Shown here piece by piece: positions 48,707 to 57,872 of a stretch of DNA of 64,000 bases (position 1 is its first letter; the number at the start of each line of letters is the position of its first letter). The position numbers and the translations under genes are program-made. The notes under the pieces are model-generated. The model was not told the DNA's origin and ran no database searches. It worked only from the letters and a program-made list of their open reading frames with translations. Source of the DNA: Firmicutes bacterium HGW-Firmicutes-11 (lineage in GTDB: Bacteria > Bacillota > Clostridia > Peptostreptococcales > Anaerovoracaceae); contig PHAE01000001.1 in assembly GCA_002840285.1 (NCBI GenBank), forward strand, positions 1 to 64,000, read 5' to 3'.

Positions 48707-50337
48707 TTCGCCACCGAAAACGACATCTCGTTGAGAAATATCGTCTGAAATTGTGAATGGGAGGCTAAGTCGATGTGCTCTGTTTCCCCGGCCAACCGAA
48801 CAGCAGATTCCCACATCTTCGGAGACAGTAAAGCCATACTCGCACCAGTTCCGGCGCCATTTCCGATGGATCTGACTTTAGAAGGTTCCACTTCAGGCAG
48901 AAGCCCGATGGTCAGAGCGCTGAGCTTATCGATATAGTTGCCAAATGCGCCGGCGATCAGCACCCTGGTCAAGTCTCCTGCCACAATGTCCAATTCCTTC
49001 ATCATGATCCGTATCCCTGCGGCAACAGCGCCCTTGGCCAACTGGACCTCGCGGATGTCTTTCTGGTAGAGTGATATCTCCTTACCATCGATTCGTCGAG
49101 AAAGCAAAAATGCGTCTCCGTACTCATCCCGCTTCAGTCGGTCAAGCAATCGTTTTGGAACATTGGAGGTCTCTCCCGCTTCTTTCGTCATCAACCTTCC
49201 TGTCGGCGAAATCAGACCGGCAGACAGGAGTTCTGCAACCACATCGATCAGACCGGATCCGCAGATCCCGGTCGGTTCCGTCTCTCCTATGACCGTCAGA
49301 TCCACATCATCATTTACGATCCGTACTTTTTCGATGGCTCCGGTAGAAGCCCTCATCCCATGGCGGATCGAAGCTCCTTCAAATGCAGGTCCGGCTGCGG
49401 TTGAACAGGTCAGGATCCGTCCGTCCTTTGCCAGCAAAATCTCGCCGTTGGTTCCAATATCGATGGCCAGGTTTGCGCCATCCAGATGTTTCAAATCGGA
49501 GGCGATCAGAACGCCAACGATGTCAGCTCCCACGTGCCCTGCGATATTGGGAAGGATCTGTAGATCGGCGTCTTCAGCCATCGTCAGACCCATCTCTTTT
49601 GCCGAAACTACGACTGGTCCTTCGTAACCGGGAAGGTAAGGTGCAGAAGCAAGGGAAGATGCATCCACACCCAGTAACAAATGGGTCATTGTCGTATTTC
49701 CTACGACGGTTCCTGCGACAATGTTGTCACCGGATATTTGATTTGCAGCAATGAACTGGCATAGAATCTCTTCTATGCAATCGATCACGATCTTTTGCAG
49801 CAATGCAGGGTTTTCCTCTTCCTGCATGGAAAACAGGATCCTTGAAATCACATCGGAACCATAAGGACTCTGCGGATTGGTTCGTGCGGCGGTATCCACC
49901 ATCTCTCCTGTCGTTAGGTTCCATAACACCCCCACGATCGTCGTAGTTCCAATGTCGAAGGCTACTCCGTATCCTTCCGGCAACCCCCTTTCTTCCTCTC
50001 GATTTGAAAGAAAATGTTCCGGAAGCCACAAGAGGTCTTTTTTTCTGTCCGTCTGCTTTTCAATGTCAGGCAGTTCTATTCGCATCCCGTCAGTGCCTGT
50101 GAGTCGGCATGCGAGACGCCAGCCGTCTTCTTGCTCCTCGCGGTTGAAAAAACGTGATTCTTCGATGGTGACCTCCGGATGACTGCCACGGAGGATCTTG
50201 ACTCGGCAACGACCGCAGGTCCCTCTTCCGGAGCAACTTGCCTCAATAGGAATAGAAGCCTTCCTGGCGATATCCAAAATGGTTTCACCTTCGCTGAAGT
50301 CAACGATTCGATTGGCGGGGAAAAATTCGATTTTCAT
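48703..50337 (-). CDS. RamA-like ATP-dependent corrinoid-protein reductive activator (2Fe-2S + ASKHA domain)
   Basis: CSGRGTCGRCRVKI ferredoxin motif; FDIGTTTIVGVLWNL; LAIDIGTNGEILL; CSTAAGPAFEGA. Confidence 0.92.
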   Translation of the reverse strand: MKIEFFPANRIVDFSEGETILDIARKASIPIEASCSGRGTCGRCRVKILRGSHPEVTIEESRFFNREEQEDGWRLACRLTGTDGMRIELPDIEKQTDRKKDLLWLPEHFLSNREEERGLPEGYGVAFDIGTTTIVGVLWNLTTGEMVDTAARTNPQSPYGSDVISRILFSMQEEENPALLQKIVIDCIEEILCQFIAANQISGDNIVAGTVVGNTTMTHLLLGVDASSLASAPYLPGYEGPVVVSAKEMGLTMAEDADLQILPNIAGHVGADIVGVLIASDLKHLDGANLAIDIGTNGEILLAKDGRILTCSTAAGPAFEGASIRHGMRASTGAIEKVRIVNDDVDLTVIGETEPTGICGSGLIDVVAELLSAGLISPTGRLMTKEAGETSNVPKRLLDRLKRDEYGDAFLLSRRIDGKEISLYQKDIREVQLAKGAVAAGIRIMMKELDIVAGDLTRVLIAGAFGNYIDKLSALTIGLLPEVEPSKVRSIGNGAGTGASMALLSPKMWESAVRLAGETEHIDLASHSQFQTIFLNEMSFSVAK

Positions 50338-50362: not shown

Positions 50363-51280
50363 TCATAGAGAGAGCAGCTGTACCAGTTCACCTTTTCGTT
50401 CGTTGAGAATGCGGCTCATCATGCGGATGCCGATGGCAGATATGATGACGATCCTGGTATCTAGTATCTCATCCTTCCATGGAGCAAATTCCACTCTGCC
50501 CCGTACACCGCTGATATAAAAGTTTCCTTCCGTTGTCCTAGCAAATCCTTTGATACGATATGCATCCATTGATAGCGCTTCTAAAAAACCGGACAATTCG
50601 GCATGGGGAATCGCTTCCTTACCATGCAGAACAAATGATTTTGGACGGCTTTCGATCGTGTTTGTCGTTTCTTCTCCTGGCAGATCTGCCGGTTTCATAG
50701 ACTTCACCAATGCATCGTAGTCCAATCGACAGTAGGATGTCATTGCCACAGAAGCATTGCTATTGGCCGCTTCTATAGTTTCAACGATCGATTCGAGAGT
50801 CGATTCTGTAATGAGATCGATTTTGTTTACAATAATATTGTTACTGTAAGCTGCCTGTTGGTGGAGTGCAGGGAGCAGATCATAGTAATCCAGGAAAGTT
50901 TCCCCATCAAGAACACAGATCGATCCCCGAAAGCGATACTGTCCTTCTGTCCGGTTTTGGATCGATGTCAGTATCTGAGGAAAATTGGCCGGATCCGCAA
51001 GACCAGATGCTTCAATAAACAACATAGAAATCGGTTCTTTTGCCATAGCGATCAGACTTTCAATAAACTTGTCTTTGATGCAAGCGCAAAAAATCGAGCC
51101 GTTGGACAACTCGTTCATGCGTACCCCATCTCGTTCCACCAATGCCCCATCGATGCCGATCTCACCAAACTCGTTGACGATGATTCCGATACGCTGGTTC
51201 TTGTATTCGTTCAGGAGTTCCTGCAGCAATGTAGTTTTTCCGGTGCCGAGAAAACCGGTGATCAAAATCAGGTCAATCAT
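50363..51280 (-). CDS. CobW/COG0523-type G3E GTPase
   Basis: LITGFLGTGKTTLLQELL (P-loop), FGEIGIDGALVE, NGSIFCACI, VNKIDL. Confidence 0.9.
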   Translation of the reverse strand: MIDLILITGFLGTGKTTLLQELLNEYKNQRIGIIVNEFGEIGIDGALVERDGVRMNELSNGSIFCACIKDKFIESLIAMAKEPISMLFIEASGLADPANFPQILTSIQNRTEGQYRFRGSICVLDGETFLDYYDLLPALHQQAAYSNNIIVNKIDLITESTLESIVETIEAANSNASVAMTSYCRLDYDALVKSMKPADLPGEETTNTIESRPKSFVLHGKEAIPHAELSGFLEALSMDAYRIKGFARTTEGNFYISGVRGRVEFAPWKDEILDTRIVIISAIGIRMMSRILNERKGELVQLLSL

Positions 51281-51348
51281 TGTGTCCTCCACATTTTAGT
51301 ATAATCTATCGAATCAAAAGAGTCCAGTACAAGGGACACCAATAAGGA

Positions 51349-51399: not shown

Positions 51400-51454
51400 A
51401 GCGCGCGTGTAGAACAGAGAACCGTCCCCATGTTCTATTTTATCCCTGCGCGCT
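51400..51454. repeat. REP/BIME-like imperfect palindrome overlapping the mtbB 3' end
   Basis: AGCGCGC-gtg-TAGAACA-gagaaccgtcccca-TGTTCTA-ttttatccct-GCGCGCT. Confidence 0.5.
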
Positions 51455-52838
51455 CTTTGAATCGCTCCACCGAGTTGATCTTGATGTCCAGGAGCTCTGC
51501 GATCCGAAACTTAGCTTCCATACCTATGTTAGCTTCTGCATTCGGTTCCACATGAGCCAGGCCAAGACCTTTTTCTTCACGTACTTCCGACATGGTGACC
51601 ACGTCGCATAATTCCTCGAGGGTGACGCCCAGTTTTCCTGCCACATATTCTTTCGCTTCGTTGATTTTCATCTTGCGAGAGAGCTGCATGCGCATAACCA
51701 GATCTCCGGCTGTGCGTACGCCGCCCATGCTGGCAGCAATTCCGTGAGTGGCTTCGGCCCCGAGGGGATCTCCTACGCCTATCTACAATCCGTCGATTTT
51801 GCCGATTTCGACCAGAGCCTTATCGACGCGGGTGACGATGTCAACCGGTAAGTTTTCACACATCGGTACTCCGCACACTCCCATTCCTGCGTTGGCATGG
51901 ATGGGAATTTCCGCTACTTCTGTACAAGCTTTGATGAAGGTGCATACTCTGGCGATGTTCCACGGGAATGTCATGTTGCAATTGGTGTTGACCACCGGCC
52001 CGAAGATGGAAGCGCCGGCTTTTTCTGCAAGCTTCACTTGTTTATGGGGATACAGCCCGGCAAGTCTGACATCATCATATTTCAGTCTGCCGTGCATGCC
52101 GAGGACGAATTCTCCCGCCATTCCGATTTCCACATGCAGATCCGGAAAACGTTCCCGGATCCGTTCGGTAGCCAGCAATGAGACGAGGAAGTCGGCATCG
52201 CCTGCGGCTCCGCTGGTATCCAGATTGATTCCATCGGCGCCGACGTCATTCATTTGCTCTGCCACATAAACGATGTCTCTGACTGCATGCTCTACTGCTT
52301 CTTCCTGTGCGGCGAGAGCTTCATTGATCTTGCCCTCCGGCAGAAGGACTGCCCAGTTTTCCACAGGGCCATCCGGCTTGGTGTAGAATCCAAGGTTCGG
52401 CATAGCGCCATAGAACAACGGTAGCGTGGTCCGGTTCAATGCGTGCTTCAGAACCGTCGCCTCTCTTTTTGCAACACCTTTTACTGTTTTGTAATTGTAG
52501 TCACTGAAACCGATGTCGACGGAGTCGCATCCCAGGATCCGTTCGTGGATCATGGCGTTGACTGCCCGGTCTGTCGGGATCCCGCATTTCGTATTGATTT
52601 TATCGGATCCGGAATCGCTTGTGGTTACGATCTGCATTCCCGGTTCCACACCGACAACGATTCCCGGCATCGTGATGATGCCATACAGGTGTTCGAACTC
52701 CTCATCGGTCAGCGCCGGAATTTTCCCACGCATAACTGCATCCGCCATGCCGGCTTTCATATCCTCTCGGATCTCCTGCTCGGTCATGTGAACGATGGAG
52801 CCGTCACCCATTCTGGTGAAGTAGGTTTTTTCTCCCAT
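51435..52838 (-). CDS. mtbB: Dimethylamine:corrinoid methyltransferase MtbB with in-frame UAG (pyrrolysine)
   Basis: ORFs 51783-52901 and 51435-51728 are in one frame around TAG at 51785-51783: ...[49 protein letters not shown]...; 467 codons. Confidence 0.95.
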
Positions 52839-52839
52839 G

Positions 52840-54318
52840 TCATCCATCCTTTCTTCTTTCTTTTTCTGCCGCCTCTGCCTCTCCTTCTTCCACGATCGCA
52901 CGGATCTTTTTTCTTACTTCTTCCGGAAGCGGAGTCGGCTGGTAGGTTCTCAATATTTCAAGGGCTTCTTCTCTTGCGACGGCCGCGATGTCTTTACCGC
53001 CGCTGCGTTCCCAATTGTCTCGCATCTTGCGATTGAACAAGCGGGTGGTTGAAAGTTCTTGTCTCATATACTTCAAGGTATGCCGTTCTCCCAGGTAGTT
53101 TCCTGCAGGACCGACTTTCTTGATGACATCCAGTGCGATGGTCTCTTTGTTGACGGCAATTCCTTGCAATATCCTTCGAATCATCCTCACGATCTCCTGA
53201 TCGATCAGAAGCTGCTCATAACTCATTGTCATTCCCATTTCCAGCATGCCCATTCCGTAGATCACATTGCTCCCTGTCAATGCGGGCAACATCGCTGTCA
53301 TTGTTTTTTCATGGCCGAGTTGAGCGTCGATGATTTTACTGTCCCCCTATGTTCCGCCAACGTTGGTAGGAATTCCATAGTAGTGTCCGATCTGACCGAC
53401 TGCCGCGCCAAACATTGCATGTTCCGGGGCGCCCACCGGCGATGTCGCCGATTTCATGTCCATGATCGTCGTCGAGCTTCCATAGAGGATCGGATTGCCT
53501 TTATTGACGATCTGGGACAGTACGATCCCACCAAGGATCTCAGCATTGGTTGTGACGAGAGTTCCTGCAAGTGTGGCGGGTGTCGTTCCTCCACACAGTC
53601 CCATGGACAAGATATCGATGGGAAGGCCGTGGCGCGCGGACAACAGGATGATCTCGGTCTCGTTTTCGTTGATTTCCAGAGGGCTGTTGGGACAAGCTCC
53701 CATGGTTATGATCGGACGTTCCCGGAGCTTGTCATACCCTCCCTGGATCGCGGCAGCCATATCGACGAATCGCTGGGTGTTTTTCTTTCCTTCCAAATCG
53801 TGGGCGAAGTTTTTTGTCAGATTGTTGAAGACAACTTCTGCTTCATGAAGCGATTTGACTCTTTGATCCACGTCTCCCGCTGCCACAGCGATGGAAAATA
53901 CATCGACCCCGTCCATCGAATCGATGAATCGTGCCACGTTTCCAAGATCTTCCTTGGTGGAGTCTCGAATTTCTCCTGTCTCGGGATCCATCATCAAGAC
54001 GCCGGTGCCGAAGTTTTTGAACACTACGTTTTTTCCGCCGACCAGTGCGTCGTTTTTAGGATCTCTTCCACAGAGGGTGAATTCCGGCGGGCAACTTTCA
54101 ATGCTGTCGTTCACCAGATTTGCAGGAAACCGGACCCTGTCAGTCTCGAAGTCCACATCACATCCGGCAGCGCTGAGGATCTCCAACGCTTCCTGCCCAT
54201 GCATCTGAAGCCCATATTCCGACATCAACTCTATTGTAGATCCATGCAAGGCATCCAGGTCTTCATTGCTTAGAATGCAATAGCCCTGAATGTCAGTCTC
54301 ATGAGTGAATTTTCCCAT
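52840..54318 (-). CDS. mttB: Trimethylamine:corrinoid methyltransferase MttB with in-frame UAG (pyrrolysine)
   Basis: ORFs 53347-54342 and 52840-53301 are in one frame around TAG at 53349-53347: ...[46 protein letters not shown]... Confidence 0.95.
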
Positions 54319-54331
54319 GTGAGCTCCTTCC

Positions 54332-54976
54332 TTATTTTTCAAGCCACCCGAGAATTACGTTCACCGCATCGGTTGCATCTTCGCAGTAAGCATCGGCACC
54401 GATCTTTTCTGCCCAACGCTTCGTGACCGGGGCGCCGCCAACCATGGTTTTCACACGGTCTCTCATCCCTTCTTTGACTAAAAGCTCTTCGATCTTCTTT
54501 TGTTCGGTCATCGTCGTTGTAAGAAGTGCGCTGCTTCCAATGAAATCAGCATTGAACTCTTTGGCTTTTTCAATGAATACTTCGGCGGGAACTTCCCTGC
54601 CCAGATCATGAACTTCGATGCCGTTGGTTTTCACTAGAGATGCAACGATTCCTTTACCGATGTCATGCACGTCTCCGGCTACTGTGCCGATGACCAGGAC
54701 ACCTTTTTTTGGTGCATCCGTCGTTTCAAGTGTTGCTTCGATTTTCTCGGTGATCATCTTCATCACTTCTGTGGAGAAAATCAGTTCGGGAAGAAAAATC
54801 TCGCCCATTCCGAACTGGTCTCCCAGTTCTCTCATTCCGGCGCTGAATCCGTCGCTCAGTAGCTCGACCATACTGAGTCCTTCTGTCTGTGCTTGTTCAA
54901 AAGCTTCCAGAGCTTTGTCTTCATCACATTCGATGATGGATTCCTTCGCCGCCAACAAAATTGCTTCTTTACTCAT
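54332..54976 (-). CDS. mttC: Trimethylamine corrinoid protein MttC-like
   Basis: TVAGDVHDIGKGIVASLVKTNGIEVHDLGREVP; immediately upstream of mttB. Confidence 0.92.
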   Translation of the reverse strand: MSKEAILLAAKESIIECDEDKALEAFEQAQTEGLSMVELLSDGFSAGMRELGDQFGMGEIFLPELIFSTEVMKMITEKIEATLETTDAPKKGVLVIGTVAGDVHDIGKGIVASLVKTNGIEVHDLGREVPAEVFIEKAKEFNADFIGSSALLTTTMTEQKKIEELLVKEGMRDRVKTMVGGAPVTKRWAEKIGADAYCEDATDAVNVILGWLEK

Positions 54977-55000: not shown

Positions 55001-56353
55001 CTATTTCACACGGCTTCTGATTTCGGACAGCAGTTCTTCCTTCGATGGTATGATGGAGATCCACTTTTGCTCTCCATTTATGCACATGGTCGGAAGATTT
55101 GCGATACCCATTTTTCTCGTTCTGGCAATGTCTTCCCTCACATTGTATTTGTAAACTTTATAGTCAGCAATATCCTTGATTTCGTCATAAATATCGACCA
55201 CGCTGTTTACCATGTACGTACAGGCGGCGCACTGCTCCGGATCCAAAGTGAACAGTTCGACCAGAACCTTGTCAAGATTGGCATAATCCGGTATTTCGAT
55301 GTCGATATCATCGATCACAACCGTGTAGTTTTCGATCATTTTCCTTGCTTCTGCCGTGTGCTTGACTGCCTGGGCAGCAGCGACCGTATTTTCGATCGGT
55401 GTGTCGTAAGGCATGTCGCAACCCGGGCTGATGATCAGATTGTGATGATCCAGACTGTCCAGAAGATCGACGACGGCTTTCATGTTATCTTCCTGATTTC
55501 CCAACAACATGGTCGTTGTCAAAGGAATGTTTCCGCCGATGGTGATGTTGTATTTGTCTGTGACTTCTTTTGCAGTCACAAGATTTACATTTTCGTCAAC
55601 AGAAACCCCGTCGGGACCCATTTTGCACATGACTTCGATCTGTTTGGAAGCGTTGCCACAGACGAAGAAGCAAGACAGCGCGCCTTTGCTTCTGATGAAA
55701 TCAAAAACAGCGGTGAACCCATCGGAGAGCATTGCTTCGATGTGCTTCGGGGACACCTGGCTGACCAAAGGATCGACGACGGCAATGACATCCATGCCTG
55801 CCTCGATGTAGAGGTCACTGACCGCGATACAAACTTCGGAGCAAAAATCGATTAGTTCTTTCACGTAGGCAGGCTCTTTGACCATGTCCATAAAGATATT
55901 CGTGCCGCGGAGATGGGAAGCCAGAGTGAATGGACCACAGACCAGACCATACAGAGCGGTCGTCTCGCCAATCGATGCTTTCAAGCGTTCCATTACTTCC
56001 AGGATCATCGGAAGTCTTCCCGACTCTCTCGTTGGGATCATGCACTTGCATGGCAAGCTCTTGTCTTCTGCCAAGGGATGGGAACGGACGGAAGGCGGAT
56101 TATCTCTCGCCCATAGCAGATTGCATCCCAGAATCTCTGCTTCTACCTGAAGGTCGAACAGCACCGGCATTCCGTCGGGCATATACATGCGATTGACTTC
56201 CATCAGGGATTCAAAAAGTTTGTCACTGTCGGTCAGAACCTCCTCCGCCGTATATCCTTTCAGCTTTCCCGCATGGACCCCCGCAAAGGGAACCCAAGGG
56301 ACCGTATCTGTTTTCTCGTGGCGTAGCGCCTGAAACACCAATTCCTTGCCCAT
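55001..56353 (-). CDS. UroD/MtbA-family methyltransferase-like protein with C-terminal thioredoxin-like domain
   Basis: N-terminal ~350 aa UroD-like (GPFTLASHLRG..., FFVCGNASKQIEVMCKMGPDGVSVDENV, LIISPGCDMPYDTP); C-terminal ~100 aa VLVELFTLDPEQCAACTYM...NLPTMCINGE; TAG stop then AAG TGA. Confidence 0.88.
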   Translation of the reverse strand: MGKELVFQALRHEKTDTVPWVPFAGVHAGKLKGYTAEEVLTDSDKLFESLMEVNRMYMPDGMPVLFDLQVEAEILGCNLLWARDNPPSVRSHPLAEDKSLPCKCMIPTRESGRLPMILEVMERLKASIGETTALYGLVCGPFTLASHLRGTNIFMDMVKEPAYVKELIDFCSEVCIAVSDLYIEAGMDVIAVVDPLVSQVSPKHIEAMLSDGFTAVFDFIRSKGALSCFFVCGNASKQIEVMCKMGPDGVSVDENVNLVTAKEVTDKYNITIGGNIPLTTTMLLGNQEDNMKAVVDLLDSLDHHNLIISPGCDMPYDTPIENTVAAAQAVKHTAEARKMIENYTVVIDDIDIEIPDYANLDKVLVELFTLDPEQCAACTYMVNSVVDIYDEIKDIADYKVYKYNVREDIARTRKMGIANLPTMCINGEQKWISIIPSKEELLSEIRSRVK

Positions 56354-56422: not shown

Positions 56423-56511
56423 CTAATCGAAGGAGAATAGTTAGTAAGACCTTCGCTACTTTTGGTAATATATTTGGATTCTTTGTAAATCTATTGCATA
56501 TCAACGAAACT

Positions 56512-56543
56512 ATTGGTAAAATTAATTCAGTATTTTTACCAAT
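56512..56543. promoter_or_regulatory. Candidate operator of the PocR-AraC regulator
   Basis: ATTGGTAAAA-ttaattcagta-TTTTTACCAAT, with another TTGGTAA about 51 bp upstream (near 56462). Confidence 0.5.
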
Positions 56544-56576
56544 AAATAGTACTTCTCATCTGAGAAATGGAGCAAT

Positions 56577-57872
56577 ATGAAGTCTAAGATGATCTCACCA
56601 GAGCAAACCCTTCCCATCAGTGGACTTTCCGCTGAACTAGAACGATCCGTTTCCGCTTTTTCCCACATCAGTGATGTGCCGGTCGTCTTCTATGACAACA
56701 ATGGTGATCCGGTCTGGCGAACCAACACGGAACAACGTGTTTGTGACTATTCCATGAGTTATAAGAACACGGAAAGCGGTTGTCGGCGTAATTTGCTATC
56801 CTCGATCAACTATGCCGCGTCTCTGGGCGAGGCCTATGTGTTCGTGTGTCATGGCGGACTTGTCAATATTGCGGTTTCTTATTTGGGAGAAAACGGCCCT
56901 AAAGGTTGCTTCATCGCCGGCCCTGTGCTCATGGGCGAGCTGAGAGAAAGCATCCTGACGAAGATATTGTCGGTCGGGCAGTTCCCTGTGGAGCTTTACT
57001 CCACCCTGCTGCTGCTTCTGAAATCGATGAAATCCCGTTCTCCGGGGGAAGTTTCCTCTTTGGCGCTTCTACTCAACAACAGTGTGGTAAGCGCCATTGG
57101 CGGGAGCGATGCCTATCTGGATACACGTTCACAGCATCAGAAGCAAGTCAAGATCGGTTCGGCTCTTCAAAACCACAAAAAATCCCATCGTCAAATGGAA
57201 TATCCACTTGATCTGGAACGGCGCATGTTTCAGTCGGTAAAAAGCGGCGAATCACGGGAAGCGTCAGACTTCGCCAGACAGTTGGTCAACGAGATCTGCG
57301 TTTTGGAATCCAGTGATATGAATGCGGTTCGCGCGAAGCTCTTTGGTTTGTATGCGCTGTTGGTTCGGGAAGCCGAAAGCGCCTTAGAGAAGGGATCCAC
57401 AGAACCGGATCACGAGTTGCAGGATCTGGGTTCTCTCTATGATTCCAGAGACCCGGAGGAGTTGGAAACAAACTTCAGCGAGATCATTAATGCATTATCG
57501 GAACGTTTTGGAAGAAGTCTCTATCATGGGGATTCAGAAATCATAGAGAAAGTAGTTCGTTATTTGTCCGCAAAACATGCAGACAAGATTTCACTTCACA
57601 AAGTGGCGGATCATTTCCACATCAACCCTTCTTATCTGTCCAGTCTCTTCAAACAGGAAATGGGGCTTGGGTTTACGGAACATCTTTGCCAGATCCGAAT
57701 CAAGGAAGCAAAACGTCTTTTGACCGATACCAACTTGACGATGGTCGACATCGCACAAAAGTGCGGATTCGATGACCAAAGCTATTTCACGAAAGTGTTC
57801 CGGAAATTGGAGGCCACTACGCCGAAGGAGTACCGAAAAATCCATCGCAGAAGCGACATCCTGCAGTATTGA
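56577..57872 (+). CDS. AraC-family regulator with N-terminal PocR sensory domain
   Basis: PocR-type N-terminus (ERSVSAFSHISDVPVVFYDNNGDPVWRTN...CDYSM...CRRNL); C-terminal double HTH (HKVADHFHINPSYLSSLFKQEMGLGFTEHL...VDIAQKCGFDDQSYFTKVFRK). Confidence 0.93.
   Translation: MKSKMISPEQTLPISGLSAELERSVSAFSHISDVPVVFYDNNGDPVWRTNTEQRVCDYSMSYKNTESGCRRNLLSSINYAASLGEAYVFVCHGGLVNIAVSYLGENGPKGCFIAGPVLMGELRESILTKILSVGQFPVELYSTLLLLLKSMKSRSPGEVSSLALLLNNSVVSAIGGSDAYLDTRSQHQKQVKIGSALQNHKKSHRQMEYPLDLERRMFQSVKSGESREASDFARQLVNEICVLESSDMNAVRAKLFGLYALLVREAESALEKGSTEPDHELQDLGSLYDSRDPEELETNFSEIINALSERFGRSLYHGDSEIIEKVVRYLSAKHADKISLHKVADHFHINPSYLSSLFKQEMGLGFTEHLCQIRIKEAKRLLTDTNLTMVDIAQKCGFDDQSYFTKVFRKLEATTPKEYRKIHRRSDILQY

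Follow-up and report, generated by a model that had tools for sequence, protein, structure and literature searches.

The window analysed here, the whole stretch of 64,000 nucleotides of a gut-type bacterium, carries on its minus strand a pyrrolysine methylamine operon. Its first gene (55001–56353; ATG at 56353, TAA at 55001–55003) is preceded by a strong Shine-Dalgarno sequence, GGAGG, and encodes a 450-residue UroD-thioredoxin fusion protein, the proposed methyltransferase 2. The initial annotation had placed an MtbA/UroD-family protein at the head of this operon, and the gene order of the methylamine cluster confirms that position. The genes that follow, all on the minus strand, encode an MttC/MtbC-type corrinoid protein (54332–54976; TIGR02370, 221.6 bits, over the cut-off), the trimethylamine methyltransferase MttB (52840–54342) with an in-frame TAG (Pyl) codon at 53347–53349, the dimethylamine methyltransferase MtbB (51435–52847) with an in-frame TAG (Pyl) at 51783–51785, a CobW-family GTPase (50363–51292; PF02492, 2.6e-41), a RamA/AcsV-type corrinoid reductive activase (48703–50337; profile matches), PylSc (47849–48814; TIGR02367, 292 bits), a second corrinoid protein (47170–47838; profile match), PylSn (46842–47165), PylD (46046–46849), tRNA-Pyl with the anticodon CUA (45971–46042; ARAGORN) and PylB (44931–46055). 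PylSn, PylD and PylB were assigned from translation and gene order; related Pyl clusters contain orthologous ORFs of PylSn, homologues of PylD and 57–60% identical homologues of PylB. The MtbB gene terminates at a TAG (51435–51437), the same codon that is read as Pyl inside MtbB, and the next in-frame stop is a TGA about 15 codons on. Neither the window nor the further stretches of the same genome that were examined yielded a pylC homologue; in relatives, pylC lies beside pylB. Besides the Pyl machinery (tRNA-Pyl and Pyl genes at 44931–48814, TAG-containing genes at 51435–54342), the genome encodes SelB with a score over the cut-off (contig C70, 21468–23336). This is a dual code expansion, pyrrolysine plus selenocysteine, in one small Clostridia genome.

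A PocR-sensor AraC-family regulator (56577–57872, plus strand; PF10114, PF12833) is divergently oriented to the fusion gene. The region between the two genes contains a near-perfect inverted repeat at 56511–56544 (TATTGGTAAAA ... TTTTTACCAATA), which is likely to be an operator. Further on, a small protein with a Cys-rich tail (57817–58518, minus strand) resembles the MetH activation domain (weak PF02965 match) and is 32% identical to an E. timonensis protein. FabZ/FabF/FabG-like and acyl-ligase genes occupy positions 60229–63999, directly upstream of the methylamine operon, and the same arrangement is seen in a related locus (L007).

The fusion protein begins with a UroD/MtaA-type barrel at residues 3–331 (55361–56347; Pfam PF01208, E = 5.9e-54); PF00809 and PF02007 were not among its Pfam matches. 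The C-terminal thioredoxin domain extends from approximately residue 361 to residue 448 (55010–55273). It matches NCBIfam TIGR00411 over residues 363–448 (4e-7) with 30 of the 92.75 bits of this MJ0307-family thioredoxin model, which is below the cut-off, the MJ0307-family thioredoxin structure PDB 1fo5 (2e-5) and, under the gathering cut-off, PF13192 (7.6e-4). In the AlphaFold2 model (17 sequences, pLDDT 82.7, pTM 0.75), the barrel is followed by a predicted beta-alpha-beta-alpha-beta-beta-alpha arrangement, the thioredoxin order of strands and helices. Alignment and model secondary structure place a CxxC (C375-A-A-C378, 55220–55231) where helix 1 begins, and cis-Pro 421, within the segment NLPTMCING (55073–55099), ahead of a strand. 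A Foldseek search with the model returned MtaA of Methanosarcina mazei as the top PDB match (4ay8/4ay7; for 4ay8, E = 1e-18 and TM 0.88 on the target), with uroporphyrinogen decarboxylases and MetE ranked behind it; by sequence as well as by fold, MtaA (4ay7, 4ay8) is the best solved relative. PF01208, TIGR00411, 1fo5 and the model thus agree with the earlier claim that a UroD part and a C-terminal thioredoxin-like domain are joined in one protein, and all four motifs quoted for it (DPEQCAACTY, NLPTMCING, FFVC and SPGCDMP) were found.

The fusion is not confined to this genome. A genome scan returned 20 homologues, 69–87% identical, in Emergencia, Sinanaerobacter and related Clostridia, and about 22 of 151 genomes of the same family carry the fusion, with a 41%-identical outlier group. 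A phylum survey of 399 genomes found relatives at E < 1e-60 in 20 besides the window's own. The 59 sequences aligned represent about 14 bacterial families, and 47 of them are fused. D194, C232, E254, C/U312, H92 and H147 are invariant or nearly so throughout the alignment. C375, C378 and P421 are invariant in all 47 fused members, down to about 38–41% identity (C424 of the cis-Pro segment is not), and the thioredoxin motifs noticed at the outset are therefore not due to chance. In divergent, split members (L076–L079, L081–L083, L087), the UroD protein stops before the thioredoxin and a thioredoxin-like gene comes immediately after it. Because the two parts are fused in some lineages and encoded by adjacent genes in others, this arrangement is strong evidence for joint action.

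The active site of the family lacks the zinc-binding His of its relatives. UroD-superfamily S-methyltransferases bind zinc via His-Cys-Cys, according to PMC10418091. The fusion has FFVC (F229–C232, 55658–55669), with Phe230 at the zinc-His position of MtaA/MtbA and Cys232 kept; the corresponding column contains Phe in 57 of the 59 sequences, Leu in two and His in none. The distal Cys312 lies in SPGCDMP (55409–55429). An altered zinc motif with the distal Cys retained had been proposed from the single sequence, and the invariance of F230/L230, C232 and C/U312 in the 59 homologues, down to the same 38–41% identity, bears this out and speaks against chance. His147 (codon at 55913–55915) occurs in 59 of 59 sequences and is a candidate replacement ligand. 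MtaA and 14 H-x-C UroDs, taken from the same genomes and from related ones, all have His at 230 and none has it at 147; a UroD encoded on contig C45 of the same genome also aligns a His at 147, but it has no Cys ligands and is poorly aligned there. Since F/L230 always accompanies H147 in the fusion family and the compared H-x-C UroDs have H230 without H147, the reciprocal swap suggests that the metal ligand may have moved. Both active-site Cys are retained, a feature that PMC10418091 links to UroD enzymes acting on sulfur or selenium substrates.

In seven loci, the codon aligned with Cys312 is UGA in a continuous reading frame (APGUDMPY, APGUDLPY). It lies at 2437 in L066 (plus strand), 2431 in L078, 2434 in L079, 2428 in L081 and 2431 in L082; L083 and L087 have it on the minus strand. 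All the genomes concerned (G291, G427, G403, G386, G457, G342 and G233) encode SelB over the curated cut-off. When the 48 nt after the UGA were folded, only L078 was markedly stable (z = −3.6), and no convincing SECIS was seen in the other loci. The outgroups were too distant for rooting, and the tree was used only for Sec/Cys and fused/split changes; as it requires four Cys/Sec changes, residue 312 appears to switch repeatedly between Cys and Sec. The UGA-for-Cys variants are a predicted selenoprotein family, and the available part of a 2026 review names no UroD-type family among prokaryotic selenoproteins.

Comparison with known systems places the fusion in the UroD/MtaA superfamily and outside its named members. 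It shares with the methanogen methylcobamide:coenzyme M methyltransferases MtaA, MtbA and MtsA the UroD barrel, a methyl-corrinoid partner, the proximal Cys, the distal PGC Cys and Glu254; it differs in having Phe for the zinc His, the invariant His147 and a thioredoxin, and its host is not a methanogen. Its scores are far under the equivalog cut-offs (MtaA, 145 of 400 bits; mtaA_cmuA, 140 of 235 bits). The superfamily part of the initial label therefore stands, and the MtbA identity does not (120 of 600 bits, zinc His missing); identity with the uroporphyrinogen decarboxylase HemE was likewise rejected (53.6 of 303 bits). The Mlp proteins encoded by type 1 mlp clusters (Kountz and Balskus, PMC10418091) are similarly bacterial and MtaA-like, and are associated with a corrinoid protein and Ram, the absence of an H4folate methylase and a link to S/Se methyl metabolism. 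Apart from a few Mlp1 exceptions, their ligands are His-Cys-Cys, and each cluster has two or three of them; the text examined describes no thioredoxin fusion. A type 1 cluster contains at least two Mlps with a corrinoid protein and Ram, whereas the present operon has one UroD protein. The methylcorrinoid:tetrahydrofolate methyltransferases MtgA, MtqA and CmuB are comparable in the proposed methyltransferase 2 role in bacterial corrinoid systems, but have a pterin-binding fold (PF00809 or PF02007), a type absent from this genome. The C-terminal domain shares CxxC and cis-Pro with the MJ0307-family thioredoxin; unlike that protein, it is joined to a methyltransferase, and its motif is CAAC or CPPC. 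The SAO selenoprotein system (SaoT etc.) also combines a thioredoxin-like partner with Sec in organometal-type chemistry, but no Sao partner was identified in the methylamine cluster, and SaoT membership was rejected (score 20, cut-off 65). No description of a UroD-thioredoxin fusion was found in the literature searched. The fusion belongs to a hitherto undescribed enzyme family that probably works like a UroD-type corrinoid methyltransferase; being outside MtaA/MtbA membership by ligand and by score, and adding redox coupling and Cys/Sec exchange, it is a distinct variant of that type.

The partners of the family were surveyed within 9 kb of the UroD-thioredoxin gene in 42 loci. CobW is the most constant neighbour (30 loci), followed by an MttC-like corrinoid protein (27), RamA (21) and the MetH-activation-like protein (16). 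The methyltransferase-1 partners include Pyl MttB, Pyl MtbB, non-Pyl MttB (L054, L058, L062), MtmB homologues without TAG and, in the outlier group, UroD types. This variety fits a methyltransferase 2 serving as the common acceptor side. Among the 151 genomes of the family, MttB-superfamily genes occur in 17 of the 22 with the fusion and in 12 of the 129 others (Fisher p = 7e-11, without correction for phylogeny). Five loci (L006, L094, L101–L103) contain only the UroD-thioredoxin/CobW pair, with no methyltransferase 1 nearby, and two Pyl operons of the same family (L113, L114) have no fusion.

The fate of the methyl group was approached through the folate and acetyl-CoA routes. No pterin-binding methyltransferase had been recognised in the cluster at first, and profiling of the operon genes led to the same result. 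Genome-wide, no conventional pterin methyltransferase was found either: the sole PF00809 protein of the window's own genome is a MetH-like ORF of 832 aa beside MetF, and MtrH (PF02007) is absent, so that a folate route via an MtgA- or MtrH-like protein elsewhere in this genome was rejected. The 19 same-family fusion genomes have no free-standing PF00809 protein of MtgA size and no free-standing MtrH; we read their PF00809 proteins of 286–296 aa as scoring like dihydropteroate synthase, and the weak PF02007 matches of two genomes (G084, G035) fall within MetH-size ORFs. The CdhC domain of acetyl-CoA synthase is absent from the own genome and from these 19, and a Wood-Ljungdahl methyl sink was rejected on this ground. 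Five same-family fusion genomes (G113, G037, G103, G144 and G062) have neither MetF nor MetH or any other pterin-binding protein; two of them belong to one genus and are 94% and 97% complete. Assembly gaps may explain some of these absences, but not easily all five. Three further genomes (G166, G439 and G542; 96–100% complete) contain no PF00809 protein at all. Several fusion genomes do carry MetF and MetH, which leaves some room for a folate route there. An MtrH-type transferase is present in the five split/Sec genomes, and at least in G386 and G457 it is encoded within the same cluster; in such genomes the UroD/thioredoxin pair can thus coexist with folate transfer. Because no MtgA/MtrH-type transferase or acetyl-CoA synthase was found in the own and the 19 other genomes, and five lack MetF and MetH, folate appears unlikely as the methyl acceptor, and a thiol would be likelier.

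We assign a probability of about 0.6 to the reading in which the fusion is the operon's methyltransferase 2, passing the methyl group to a nucleophile, sulfur or selenium, that is held in a remodelled metal site on which the thioredoxin also acts. MttB and MtbB would transfer the methyl groups of tri- and dimethylamine to their corrinoid proteins; methyl-MttC or methyl-MtbC would then dock on the UroD barrel, which would take the methyl. The metal site may consist of Cys232 and Cys312 (or Sec), with His147 probably substituting for the lost His and Glu254 possibly contributing, and the nucleophile bound there, rather than tetrahydrofolate, would be methylated. The thioredoxin domain would most likely deliver or re-reduce a thiol or persulfide acceptor, or resolve a disulfide or selenenylsulfide with Cys/Sec312, and the product could be a small methylated thiol, e.g., methanethiol. 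The sequences themselves show the fold, the exchanged residue, the alternation of Cys with UGA, the thioredoxin pairing, the many methyltransferase-1 types and the lack of detectable folate-type transferases; we infer which way the methyl moves, that a thiol accepts it, how the metal is bound and what exactly the thioredoxin does. The methyltransferase 2 role is quite probable, and a thiol acceptor is slightly favoured; that the thioredoxin takes part in each turnover is a tentative suggestion. It is also doubtful, though conceivable, that these proteins form a redox-coupled methyltransferase 2 class in anaerobic bacteria, in which the methyl group would pass to the Cys/Sec312 site or a (per)sulfide there and the methylated sulfur product would be released at the thioredoxin's expense. 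Such a class would provide non-acetogenic, folate-independent methyl disposal, with the His ligand moved and Sec possible as ligand or nucleophile.

The fusion could instead be an accessory, for example in protecting the corrinoid system or in its redox repair, with an ordinary H-x-C UroD elsewhere as the real methyltransferase 2. The initial annotation had considered that a conventional pterin methyltransferase elsewhere might do the transfer and leave the fusion dispensable; no enzyme of that kind was found genome-wide, but a conventional UroD does, and dispensability is possible. On contig C73 (3.5 kb; L049, 1765–3488), a UroD with H-N-C and the distal Cys lies directly downstream of an MttC paralogue that is 71% identical to the operon MttC, a putative second corrinoid methyl system of the genome. 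Three other genomes (G023, G128, G007) have an H-x-C UroD directly after a non-Pyl MttB. Since two genomes (G072, G137) have Pyl methylamine operons without the fusion and yet contain H-x-C UroDs, the one in G137 just past the Pyl genes and 65% identical to the C73 protein, such UroDs can probably fill the methyltransferase 2 slot, and where a genome has both, the fusion might serve as an alternative or play an accessory part. Nevertheless, in the window's lineage it is the fusion that sits in the operon and the H-x-C protein that lies outside, and Emergencia and many relatives retain the fusion in their Pyl clusters. The Cys, Glu and Asp of its active site are invariant, which, like the Cys/Sec alternation, argues for catalysis rather than a decayed enzyme, and the C73-type protein could be another methyltransferase 1. 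We consider the accessory role unlikely.

It seems rather improbable that the fusion, which has no pterin-binding domain, passes the methyl to tetrahydrofolate and so feeds MetF or methionine synthesis. Tetrahydrofolate is the final acceptor in characterised bacterial systems (PMC8318568, PMC10418091), and MetF and MetH-like genes are adjacent in this genome; the five genomes devoid of both, the sulfur or selenium substrates of UroD enzymes with two active-site Cys and a fusion sequence with nothing suggestive of pterin binding speak against it. It is more improbable still that a lipoyl arm is the methyl acceptor or electron donor, the thioredoxin coupling the UroD site to a lipoylated GcvH-like carrier. 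GcvH or GcvH-like genes do adjoin the pair in five genomes (L098, L099, L108, L109, L110); L108 and L109 additionally encode lipoyl synthase and dihydrolipoamide dehydrogenase, and L108 also has a lipoate ligase. However, no GcvH gene is near the fusion in the window or the Anaerovoracaceae loci, and the lipoyl genes can alternatively be read as a glycine synthase fed by MtrH. The L108 and L109 clusters, which combine MtrH, a corrinoid protein, RamA, an H-x-C UroD, a Sec UroD, a thioredoxin, GcvH-like carriers, lipoyl synthase, dihydrolipoamide dehydrogenase, DGC proteins and a MIP channel, appear to be an uncharacterised lipoyl-linked methyl system.

As of 2021, the second methyltransferase of bacterial trimethylamine use was uncharacterised (PMC8318568), and the mttB genes of Emergencia and relatives are reported to rank among those most actively transcribed in samples from the human gut (PMC10653893). 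The fusion family is a concrete, testable candidate for this enzyme in Emergencia and its relatives and, for bacterial use of methylamines in general, the leading candidate for the second methyltransferase. Should a thiol be the acceptor, trimethylamine, the precursor of a cardiovascular risk factor, would end up in sulfur volatiles or methylthio compounds and not in acetate or methane. The UGA-for-Cys variants would add a selenoprotein family, and the His swap poses a clear structural question on metal-thiol methyl transfer.

Contig C34 of the same genome (L121, 8985–11100) encodes a non-Pyl MttB homologue that is accompanied by a corrinoid protein of its own, with no fusion nearby. Genes for MIP (aquaporin-type) channels recur near UroD-thioredoxin genes (L015, L056, L105, L108, L109) and possibly serve the export of a neutral volatile product; they also raised arsenic or another organometal as acceptor, which the methylamine operon does not support. 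MtmB-family proteins without an in-frame TAG adjoin the UroD-thioredoxin genes in Bacillota at L097 (777–2171), L104 (4764–6167), L107 (8358–8993) and L112 (7966–9390), and the L104 homologue matches PF05369.
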